This document shows positions 9,249 to 28,000 of a stretch of 50,777 nucleotides of DNA, one piece after another. The position numbers and the translations under genes are program-made. The notes beneath the pieces were generated by a model that saw only the letters and a program-made list of their open reading frames with translations, had not been told where the DNA came from and did no database searches. This stretch comes from Desulfobacterales bacterium. Lineage in GTDB: Bacteria > Desulfobacterota > Desulfobacteria > Desulfobacterales > ETH-SRB1. Where the stretch lies: assembly GCA_030610995.1 (NCBI GenBank), contig JAUWQO010000009.1, positions 1 to 50,777 on the forward strand, given 5' to 3'. Each line of letters opens with the position of its first letter. The stretch's first letter is position 1.

Positions 9249-9329
9249 TAATCTTAGCCTCCTGTTTTTTTAAGCGCTAAAATACAAGAAATATTTATGC
9301 ATTTTACATAATTATATTCAAGATATTTC

Positions 9330-9712
9330 GTAACTATTCAGCCACAGATTCACACAGATGAACGCAGATAGGTTTAAATACAAAGAAATCACAGAACATT
9401 AAGAATTATATTAATATGTTGGTGACTTTATAACTTTATGGCTGAACTATTACAATAAAACCCCAATTGAGCTTTTAGCAGTTAGCACAATAATTCAACC
9501 CCGCCGTTAGCCATTAGCGTTTAGCCGTTAGCATTGGAAAAGCGGTGGAAATGAGAGATTTTAGAGAACTTAATCAACAGGTCAATGAGGTAAAAAGGAT
9601 GTTGAACAGTTTTATCCAAAAGCTAACCGCTAATTGCTAAGAGACAACCACATCTTATGTAAAAGAAAAAATATCAGTGATGATCAGCGTAGATCAGTGG
9701 CTGAATAGTTAC
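9330..9712. mobile_element. MITE-like element A, copy 1 (16-bp TIR, 8-bp TSD)
   Basis: The ends are perfect 16-bp inverted repeats: GTAACTATTCAGCCAC at 9330-9345 and GTGGCTGAATAGTTAC at 9697-9712. The element is flanked by an identical 8-bp direct repeat, GATATTTC (9322-9329 and 9713-9720), as expected for a target-site duplication. The first 65 bp and an inner block with ttataactttatggctgaac are shared with copy 2 at 15741-16080. At about 9460-9650 the copy holds a second inverted repeat made of TTAGC/GCTAA words enclosing a fragment of a four-helix-bundle gene. No transposase is encoded, so mobility would depend on an enzyme elsewhere. Confidence 0.75.
9551..9640 (+). pseudogene. 3' fragment of an S23/four-helix-bundle protein gene
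   Basis: This 29-codon frame (M R D F R E L N Q Q V N E V K R M L N S ...) ends LTANC. It closely resembles the last helix of the TIGR02436 four-helix-bundle proteins first known from 23S rRNA intervening sequences, which typically end in an acidic/amphipathic E-xx-R-M-L-xx-L-xx-K-L helix. The first three helices are missing. The stop codon is provided by the GCTAA-word repeat arm. The fragment sits inside MITE-like element A1. Confidence 0.5.
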
Positions 9713-9804
9713 GATATTTCTTGAACCGGGGTTTGAGTTTGTTGTCAATTTTCAATAACCATGTTAAATATTGATCCAAACAAAACATAATACCGGATAG
9801 AGAC

Positions 9805-15435: not shown

Positions 15436-15600
15436 TAACTATTGTCTGAACGAAAACCCCTGAATTACATTATTCCTGTCATTGCGAGGGAGGTGCGACC
15501 GAAGCAATCTCGTTAAAAACCAAGGGATTGCTTCGTCGTTCGTTCCTCACTCCTCGCAATGACGACCCGAAACTATGGGTTTTCGGTCAGGCACTAATTA
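15436..15600. repeat. MITE-like element B, copy 2
   Basis: The ends ATTGTCTGAACGAAAAC and GTTTTCGGTCAGGCACTAAT match the outer inverted repeats of copy 1 (11645-11776). The inside is a different hairpin built from cattgcgagg / cctcgcaatg with gcaatctcg / gattgcttcg arms. It lies in the upstream region of the IMP cyclohydrolase gene. Confidence 0.6.
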
Positions 15601-15740
15601 TGTATTTTTTATACTATCATTACAAATAGTGTCAAGAATTTTGTGTAAAAGACAAAACCGTTTTTTCCTCTTGGCATTGCCACTTCTTTTTCCAAAATTC
15701 CATTTGCAATTCGATAAATTTACGCATAGTTTATTTCCAT

Positions 15741-16080
15741 GTAACTATTCAGCCACAGATTCACACAGATGAACGCAGATAGGTTTAAATACAAAAAAAT
15801 CACAAAACATATTATAATCTAAAATAAGCGATTAGCCATTAGCTTTTAGCTATTAGTGAAACTATATCAAAATATTATTAAATAATAACATTTCACCCGA
15901 TGGGTAATTAATAAATAATTATACGAATGCATATTCCATAAGAGCCAATGGCTAATTGCTAACAGCTAATCGCTTAACGTAGGTATAATCTTGGTGACGT
16001 TATAACTTTATGGCTGAACTATTACAATAAAAGATAAAATATCAGTGATAATCAGCGTAGATCGGTGGCTGAACAGTTAC
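15741..16080. mobile_element. MITE-like element A, copy 2
   Basis: Ends: GTAACTATTCAGCCAC (15741-15756) and GTGGCTGAACAGTTAC (16065-16080), 15 of 16 complementary. Flanks ATTTCCAT (left) and ATTTCCAA (right) form an 8-bp direct repeat with one mismatch, consistent with an aged target-site duplication. The end regions match copy 1 at 9330-9712. The inner inverted repeat of TTAGC/GCTAA words (about 15830-15980) sits at a different internal site from that in copy 1 and contains no gene fragment. It ends 35 bp before the RACo start codon. Confidence 0.72.
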
Positions 16081-16115
16081 ATTTCCAATTAAGATTTCGG
16101 AGACCTTTATTATTG

Positions 16116-24992: not shown

Positions 24993-25034
24993 ATGAAAAA
25001 AAGGAAGTCCCTATACAATATATTTAGTGGCTGA

Positions 25035-28000
25035 ATGGTTACAGACATGAAAGAAAGTAAAACAACAAAAAGTGGTTCTGTCCTTGTCGTGGGCGGCGGT
25101 GTGGCAGGTATTCAGGCATCTTTGGATCTTTCTGAGCTGGGTTATTTTGTTTACCTCGTTGAGAAATCCGCATCAATTGGCGGGGCAATGGCTCAATTGG
25201 ACAAGACCTTCCCTACCAATGACTGTGCTATCTGAATACTCGGACCAAAGTTAGTTGAGGCCGGTCGGTCTCCAAACATAAAGATACTGACAAACGCTCG
25301 ATTGGAATCTGTTCAGGGTGAGGCAGGGAACTTTACTGCTCGCGTGCATACTGCTGCGCGATACATCAACGAGGAACTTTGCACGGGCTGCGGCACATGC
25401 ACTATGTATTGCCCTGTTATGATCGTCGATATTTTCAATGAAGGTCTTGCTTTAACAAAAAGCCTTCATAAAGATTATCCCCAGGCAGTGCCGTCGAGTT
25501 TTTATATCGATCCCAAAGAATGTCTTTTTATAAATCATGAGATGTGTCGTATCTGTGTTTCAACATGTCAAGCACAGGCCATAGATTTTAGTCAGACAGA
25601 GGAAGATCACAATCTATCTGTAGGTTCTGTAATATTGGCTCCGGGGTTTGGACATATTGATGATGAAGTTCTTAGCCGCCACGGTTTTGGTAAATATCCT
25701 GATGTGCTTACAAGTTTAGAATTCGAGCGGTTGACTTGTGCATCAGGTCCTACTGAAGGGACGATTGTCAGGCCGTCAGATCAGCGCCCTCCAAAACATA
25801 TTGCATTCCTCCAGTGCATAGGCTCAAGGGATGAAACATGTGGAAATGGATACTGCTCATCAGTTTGCTGTATGTATGCAATTAAAGAGGCATCTGTGGC
25901 AAAAGAACACGACCCTGATCTTGATATAACCATATTTTACATGGATATGAGGACTCAGGGCAAGGAATTTGATGCATCCCGTCAACGAGCCAGGGAAAAA
26001 TACGGCATCAAATTTGTCAGATCACGTATTGCGGGAATTCAAGAACAGGGGGATCGGTTGAGGATATCATACGTGGATGGCCGAGGTGTTCATCACGGTA
26101 AGTACTTTGACATGGTTGTTCTGTCTGAAGGTTTGGAATCACCCGAAGGGGCTGATGATCTTGCCCGCAACTGCGGTATTGATATTAATAAGTACGAATT
26201 TTGCAGCACTCAGGCTTTTACTCCCCTTCAGACATCAAGACAGGGTATCTTTGTGGCCGGCGCTTTCGGAGGACCAAAAGACATCCCTGAGAGCGTTACT
26301 GAAGCAACCGGCGCTGTGGCTTCTGTTGACTCATTGCTAAACAAAGTGAGGGGCAGCCAGGTTGAAAAAAAAGAATACCCCGCAGAGCTTGTGATAGGAG
26401 ATGAGCCAAGAATAGGTGTTTTTGTGTGCCACTGTGGAAGCAATATTGCAAGTGTTATTGACGTTGCCGCAGTTAGAGAATATGCGTCAACTCTTGAGAG
26501 CGTTGTTTATGCGGATCAAAGCCTGTATGCTTGTTCTCAGGACGCTCAATATATCTTAAAGGAAAAGATTGAAGAGCATAATCTTAACAGGGTTATAGTT
26601 GCTGCCTGCACACCACGTACACATGAACCATTATTTCAGGAAACACTGAGGGATACGGGTCTGAACCGCGCTCTGTTTGAAATGGTAAATATCAGGGACC
26701 AGTGTTCGTGGGTGCATGCAGGAGAGCCTGAAGAAGCTACTGAGAAAGCAAAGGATCTAATCAGAATGGCAGTCGCAAAGTCCTGTCTGTTAGAGCCGCT
26801 TCCAGAGCAGCAAATTCCTGTTATACCTAAAGCACTGGTCATAGGTGGTGGAATTTCAGGAATGACAGCCGCGTTGAGTATGGCGGAGCAGGGATTTGAG
26901 ACCTTTCTAATAGAAAAGTCTGACAAACTTGGCGGTAATTTGAGGAATGTGAGCGCTCTGCTATCTGGCGAGGACCCAGGAAAAATAGTTAAAGAAGTTG
27001 AGGAAAAGCTAACTTCCAATGACTTGATACGAGTTTATACCGGCGCTGAGGTTGAAAGCGTATCCGGCTATGTGGGGAACTTTACCACTAACATTTCTTC
27101 TGCTTTGGGGACACAAGTTATTGAGCACGGTGTAATCATTATTGCTACTGGTGGCCGTCCGTATGAGCCAAAGCAGTATTGTTACGGAACTTCCAGGCAG
27201 GTTGTAACCCAACTGGAATTGGAAGATGCTATTTCTTCCGGCGCCCTGGAGGAAGATCTCCAACAGGTTGTTATGATTCAATGCGTTGGTTCCAGAGGGG
27301 ATGACCTTTCTTATTGCAGCAAGATATGCTGCGGTCAGGCCGTGAAAAATGCTCTGCGGATTTTAGATAAATACCCGAATGCCAATATTTATATCCTTTA
27401 CAGAGATATGCGCACTTACGGGTTTATGGAAGACTACTATAAAAAGGCAAGAAAAAAAGGCGTTGTTTTTGTCAATTATGACAAGGAAAAAGCGCCTGTT
27501 GCAACTGACACGGACGGCAAGCTTTCCGTTACCTTTTTTGATGAAATGCTTGATGAGGATATTACCCTTGAGCCGGATCTTCTCGTACTGAGCGTTGGAA
27601 TAGTACCGAACGATGTTGACAGCCTGTCAAAGATTCTCAAGGTCCCTGTGACAAAGGATAATTTTTTCCTGGAGGCACATGTCAAGCTCCGTCCTGTTGA
27701 ATTTTCTGTTGACGGTATATTCATGTGCGGTCTTGCCCATTCCCCCAAACCGGTTAATGAATCTATTGCTCAGGCAAAATCTGCTGCCGGCAAGGCAGCT
27801 CTACCTCTGGCAAAAGGTGTCGTGTCAGTAGAGCCGATTGTATCTAAAGTAAATCCTGAAATTTGCATTGGGTGCGGTATTTGTGTAAGCCTTTGCCCGT
27901 ATCAGGCGATTCAAATGGTCAAGGCAGACAAGAAGAAAAAGGCGGAAACTATTTCCGCCTCTTGTAAAGGCTGTGGGATTTGCGCATCCCATTGTCCAAA

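Follow-up and report, generated by a model that had tools for sequence, protein, structure and literature searches.

Mini-elements with IS66-type ends in a Desulfobacterales genome descend by internal deletion from an element carrying a GxxExxY gene

Introduction

Are two anonymous-looking intergenic repeats in a Desulfobacterales genome mobile elements and, if so, what moves them and from what do they descend? The repeats lie in the window analysed here, a stretch of 50,777 nucleotides from a Desulfobacterales-type MAG of 3.02 Mb in 200 contigs (93% complete; hereafter the home genome). A sequence-only reading had proposed that both are copies of one non-autonomous transposon that duplicates 8 bp of its target, a proposal that would fail if most copies lacked such duplications or if the flanking 8-mers belonged to a longer conserved repeat.

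Results

Two window elements with matching ends and flanks

Element 1 (9330-9712, plus strand, 383 bp) is delimited by two perfect 16-bp terminal inverted repeats, with GTAACTATTCAGCCAC at 9330-9345 on the plus strand and at 9697-9712 on the minus strand, and is flanked on both sides by GATATTTC (9322-9329 and 9713-9720). Element 2 (15741-16080, plus strand, 340 bp) belongs to the same family; its ends carry zero and one mismatch, and its flanks ATTTCCAT (15733-15740) and ATTTCCAA (16081-16088) agree at 7/8 positions. Re-reading bore out the coordinates, perfect inverted-repeat ends and exact 8-bp flanks first reported for element 1, together with the extent, ends and flanks of the second copy. 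A transposase ORF was absent from both elements. Across the window, ends with up to three mismatches occurred six times against 0.29 expected, and a solitary end, GTAACCATTCAGCCAC (25027-25042, minus strand), had no recognisable partner. Both elements folded better than their shuffled counterparts (z of -5.1 and -7.2), as expected of long palindromes, and an Rfam scan of the window returned 0 families.

The window holds further features in its own right. A different anonymous repeat at 15495-15598, of the CGAAGCAATC..CTCGCAATGACGA type and terminating in GTCAGGCACTA, is of a type also nested in two other loci (L041 and L054). Judged from ORF sequences only, positions 19895-43788 carry a Wood-Ljungdahl-type locus, in which genes for CO dehydrogenase/acetyl-CoA synthase and the folate pathway cluster with heterodisulfide-reductase-like and formate-dehydrogenase-like genes.

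Home-genome copies duplicate 8 bp of target DNA

Throughout the home genome, the 16-bp end was found at 65 places (36 exact, 29 with one mismatch), while a reversed control pattern gave 0. Examining the surroundings of all ends yielded 28 inward-facing pairs with lengths of 102-653 bp. The flanking 8-mers of these pairs matched at 8/8 positions in eight cases, 7/8 in five and 6/8 in three; the remaining 12 showed no recognisable duplication, which counts against the IS66 explanation developed below. When right flanks were shuffled among elements in 20,000 rounds, none of the permutations reached the observed 16 of 28 pairs agreeing at 6/8 or better (maximum, 9). Exact flank repeats occurred in eight pairs at length 8 and in none at lengths 5-7 or 9-12. 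The flanking 8-mers are therefore target duplications, of constant length and in AT-rich sites, and not parts of a longer repeat; neither circumstance that would have undone the initial proposal applies, the duplication length being sharply 8 bp and most paired copies matching at 6/8 or better. A 2.2-kb end pair on contig C37, considered as an autonomous copy, was rejected as a transposon; it holds a complete aminoacyl-tRNA-synthetase-like gene and a separate element.

Sister species provided the corresponding empty sites. At the element 1 locus the window reads ATTCAA-GATATTTC-[element 1]-GATATTTC-TTGAAC, and the corresponding sequence in two members of the same genus (G001 and G003) is ATTCAAGAGATTTCTTGAAC or close to it. 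The element 2 site is empty in a third (G004), which reads GTTTATTCTCATTAATATTTCGG. At each empty site the 8-mer duplicated in the window is present once, with one or two substitutions. The two window copies are therefore genuine insertions whose presence varies among members of the genus, in support of the claim of true transposition. In all, empty sites were seen in G001, G003, G004 and G006.

IS66 transposases lie between the same ends elsewhere

GTAA ends are typical of IS66 elements, and 8-bp duplications are made by several IS families. The window ends start with GTAA(C) (GTAACTATTCAG), and their first 12-13 nt are identical in IS66 copies from the genus and order; the ends of autonomous elements within the order match at 13-14/16 nt at best and never at 16, which counts against the IS66 explanation. 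So does the absence of any PF03050 (IS66 transposase) match in the home bin, at 93% completeness and 200 contigs. As PF03050 is absent from the elements and the home bin and present in autonomous relatives, the window elements are IS66-ended and not IS66 insertion sequences.

Within the genus, G001 contains a 3333-bp IS66 element (L101 2469-5801) with perfect GTAACTATTCAGGGGT ends, of which the first 12 nt are in common with the window ends; no matching duplication was found at its flanks, a further point against. This element has an additional ORF of 149 aa upstream of TnpC (L095:308-757). The order also contains IS66 elements that measure 1.59-1.76 kb and have a single transposase ORF; they end in GTAACTATTCAGC.. 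or GTAACTACTCAG.. and are flanked by 8/8 duplications, namely ATAAAAAC (L261), CATTTTCT (L262), GGATTTTT (L263), AAAACGCC (L265) and AAACAAGT (L266); L261, L263, L265 and L266, at 1.72-1.76 kb, carry GTAACTATTCAGC at one or both ends.

An exact 16-mer scan of a 257-Gb collection covering 84,980 species recovered two complete elements. Lone matches were discounted because about 120 are expected by chance (our own arithmetic), and only pairs with duplications were used. The element from a Methanomicrobiales MAG (L126; 1542 bp) has ends matching at 16/16 and 15/16, the duplication TTTTATGG and a 485-aa TnpC, and that from a Cryomorphaceae MAG (L177; 1522 bp) has an 8/8 duplication, AAGGTTTT, and a 456-aa TnpC. 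Both proteins match DDE_Tnp_IS66 (PF03050; E of 2.9e-40 and 3.6e-45, respectively) as well as the zinc finger of IS66. MAGs of Elusimicrobia (L109), Methylobacter (L151), Anaerolineales (L111), Altiarchaeales/Altarchaeum (L140, L170, L173) and Syntrophaceae (L165, L178) likewise contain mini-elements that combine these ends with 8/8 duplications; several of these non-home copies have a variant second end, for example GTAACTACTCAGGT. An Anoxybacillus IS66 element (L152 5061-6639) is flanked by an exact duplication, AAACAGAA; one of its ends is exactly GTAACTATTCAGCCAC and the other shares no more than GTAA, indicating that the two ends of an ISBst12-group element can differ greatly.

The sequence-only reading had also suggested looking for a transposase gene between the same ends. 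Such genes exist, as IS66 TnpC in elements of about 1.5-1.76 kb with exact 8-bp duplications, and none is present in the home genome. The ISBst12-group element ISDge4 has been observed to jump; it encodes a transposase of 449 aa, its ends are GTGACTACTCAGCA/GTAACTGCTCAGCA, and an 8-bp repeat accompanies it (PMC12898284). Literature searches using the end and arm sequences returned unrelated matches only, and no description of IS66-derived MITEs was found in the searched literature, outside whose scope many subscription papers lie.

Mini-elements are remnants of a gene-bearing element

On contig C37 of the home genome lies a 653-bp element (L031:3166-3818) whose ORF matches PF13366 (PDDEXK_3; E of 1.1e-37) and NCBIfam TIGR04256, the GxxExxY family (E of 1.3e-36), which belongs to the PD-(D/E)XK nuclease superfamily. 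The gene extends from a start codon in the left arm to final codons in the right arm. Close to the 3' end of the gene lies an interrupting insert, which has the ends CAACCTGTGCGGTTAG/CTAACCGCACAGGTTG and is flanked by AAAGATTT on each side.

Of the other 27 elements, 25 match this sequence, nearly all at both ends; the two exceptions, of the GGCAC type, have no match to it, which counts against common descent. Five intermediates (L036, L040, L045, L048 and L049) keep interior gene segments: L049 retains parent positions 24-103, 289-394 and 582-652, and L045 retains 1-92, 303-394 and 582-648, while the shortest copies are reduced to about 1-60 and 600-648. Both window copies are homologous at both arms. 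Element 1 retains positions 1-66 and 601-648, its left arm (9330-9395, plus strand; remnant GxxExxY start codon at about 9358) and right arm (9660-9707, plus strand) being 94% identical to the 5' and 3' ends of the gene-carrying element, and element 2 retains 1-64 and 593-646. The mini-elements therefore derive by internal deletion from the gene-bearing element, and not from IS66.

The arms contain repeated units, spaced at 10 bp (CAGAT type, as in the left arm of element 1, 9330-9395) or at 8 bp (GGCAC type). Arm autocorrelation reached 0.47 (lag 10) and 0.42 (lag 8), compared with 0.27-0.29 in shuffles, values that are only descriptive because pattern was the basis for choosing the types.

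These elements in turn harbour other mini-elements. Element 1 holds a TTAGC-type insert, and the TTAGC-type palindromic insert of element 2 (15821-15983) is bounded by its own duplication, TATAATCT, at 15813-15820 and 15984-15991; similarly, an inner element with GTAGCCGTTCACGG ends in L034 has GAAAAAAT on each side. This nesting and the descent from the GxxExxY element are additions to what the sequence-only reading contained. A second family, with GTARCCGTTYACRG ends, to which this inner element belongs, outnumbers the first, with 118 ends in the home genome (for example L034, L289, L290 and L293), and among 22 sampled pairs its duplications matched at 8/8 in seven and at 6-7/8 in four more. 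Its interior consists of GAAATTGGAAATTAG arrays, and an IS66-like end, GTAACTGTTCACAGGG, was seen in L271.

Most sampled GxxExxY genes sit within inverted arrays in several phyla

PF13366 matches number 20 in the home genome and are present in six of the seven genus members. Around other GxxExxY genes we found inverted arrays of the 7-mers CACAGAG (L302, L338), CACGAAA (L310, L342), CGCAAAG (L308, L311, L313), CACAGAT (L333) and ACAGGAT (L352, L372), and of CACGGA (L370, L376) and CACTAAG/CAAAG (L344, L380, L387). Enclosure was scored by locally aligning 260 bp of upstream sequence with 260 bp of downstream sequence in reverse complement. With a cut-off of 16.5, 33 of 46 GxxExxY genes scored above the threshold; among 459 other ORFs, 5% did so (Mann-Whitney P of 6e-20). 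The sample spread evenly over the phylum, comprising 18 genes, gave a P of 1.5e-9 when taken alone. As in RAYT-REP systems, the gene lies within inverted repeats, and lone arrays and mini-elements are abundant.

GTAAC ends occur at a minority of GxxExxY loci (L328, L344 and L387). In the Elusimicrobia locus L344, IS66-type ends enclose 475 bp with a 7/8 duplication (CGCAATTG/CGTAATTG); a duplication is absent from L387. Around array-bounded GxxExxY units lacking GTAAC ends, target duplications did not exceed chance. A D-x-ExK motif is conserved in 42 of 46 GxxExxY proteins, which is compatible with an active nuclease. PADLOC gave no defence-system match for GxxExxY, no close solved structure was found, and the searched literature, in which the name is almost never mentioned, describes neither a function nor mobility for the family; nor did it yield a description of GxxExxY-array units, many subscription papers being outside its scope.

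One orthologous intergenic site carries five different inserts in five sister species. Distinct array-bounded GxxExxY units occupy it in G004 (C22, L302) and G001 (C89, L310), a gene-less array palindrome in G005 (C12, L399) and a toxin-antitoxin-like pair, named from ORF reading only, in G006 (C162, L398); the home genome (G000:C131, L394) has a 102-bp IS66-type MITE together with the same toxin-antitoxin-like pair as G006. The site resembles an insertion hotspot or a cassette-exchange site.

Discussion

Overall, we hold with high confidence that the window copies are genuine MITEs moved by IS66-type transposition; with no such gene in the home bin, we infer that an IS66 transposase is the mover of the home copies. 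A single-ORF transposase of the ISBst12 group would recognise the 12-16-bp ends (GTAACTATTCAG-CCAC) in trans, and insertion into AT-rich intergenic DNA through an 8-bp staggered cut would leave the 8-bp duplication. Internal deletion of a longer precursor, which shared these ends and carried one GxxExxY gene, gave rise to the mini-elements, leaving arms made of the two gene ends and periodic CAGAT repeats, and later nested insertions of other mini-elements, again with 8-bp duplications, account for differences in copy length.

Could the 8-mers instead be chance matches or pieces of a longer intergenic repeat, with no transposon involved? The AT-rich flanks and the 12 pairs without a match might suggest so, but the permutation test and the length specificity speak against it and the empty sites in sister genomes already refute it, making this reading practically negligible. 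A mover from another family that duplicates 8 bp, for example IS1595, ISL3 or IS256, with GTAAC-like ends arising by chance, would fit both the general occurrence of 8-bp duplications in several IS families and the missing IS66 gene in the home bin. We nevertheless regard it as very improbable: apart from the GxxExxY elements, which lack a transposase, every coding element with these ends and a target duplication encodes PF03050, a non-IS66 transposase was never seen between such ends, and GTAA ends are characteristic of IS66.

The two other alternatives concern the role of the nuclease and are compatible with IS66-type transposition of the window copies. On one of them, the IS66-type ends are incidental, and the GxxExxY gene makes up, together with the arrays, a separate mobile or cassette unit in which the nuclease would act as mobiliser, as RAYT does for REP. 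The enclosure of GxxExxY genes by inverted arrays in several phyla and the differing array-bounded cassettes at the shared site would fit such a role in movement; however, array units without GTAAC ends show no duplication above chance, whereas GTAAC-ended mini-elements do, and other genes, the toxin-antitoxin-like pair, occupy the shared site too, leaving this reading unlikely. The other alternative, to which we give slightly less than an even chance, is that the gene was passive cargo that became enclosed by a pair of IS66-type ends and was subsequently lost by deletion. It agrees with the small share of GxxExxY loci that have GTAAC ends, but arm arrays accompany GxxExxY genes lacking IS66 ends in many phyla, so the linkage of array and gene is independent of IS66. 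As a broader and tentative reading, possible though on balance doubtful, GxxExxY proteins may be the cognate enzymes of pan-bacterial intergenic repeats, that is, inverted arrays of 7-mers (CACAGAT, CACAGAG, CACGAAA, CGCAAAG, CACTAAG, ACAGGAT) at a spacing of 8-10 bp. A complete unit would then be array-GxxExxY-array, the lone arrays dispersed across many genomes would be its non-autonomous remains, and some units would have gained IS66-type ends and move as MITEs.

IS66-type transposition gives a class of anonymous-looking repeats a probable engine, the IS66/ISBst12 transposase, and a movement proven by empty sites. The statistical association of gene and array in unrelated bacteria ties these repeats to the little-mentioned GxxExxY family and turns their identity, and the role of GxxExxY, into a question answerable by binding, cleavage and transposition assays. 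If true, the cognate-enzyme reading would provide many unnamed repeats of environmental genomes with a gene and a mechanism.

Among known systems, the ISBst12 group (for example ISDge4; PMC12898284) shares GTAACTxyTCAGC ends and the 8-bp target duplication, and is the likely transposase source for the window elements; these differ in lacking a transposase, having only the outer 12-16 bp in common and an interior unrelated to IS66. Prokaryotic MITEs such as Chunjie, QMITE1/2 and MITEPsy1, in a review that never mentions IS66 (PMC10969869), are similar in their size below about 600 bp, terminal inverted repeats and duplications, and equally in being intergenic, palindromic, size-variable and present in tens of copies, whereas the parent here is a GxxExxY-gene element with IS66-type ends and not the IS itself. 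RAYT-REP systems (REP-associated tyrosine transposases) also place a small nuclease-like gene between inverted short repeats that occur solitarily genome-wide; in contrast to RAYT, GxxExxY is a PD-(D/E)XK-superfamily protein and not an HUH/Y1 enzyme, and unlike REP, the repeats here are arrays spaced at 8-10 bp whose enzyme-driven movement is putative. Finally, the gene of the 653-bp parent is a clear member of the GxxExxY family (TIGR04256; PF13366 PDDEXK_3).
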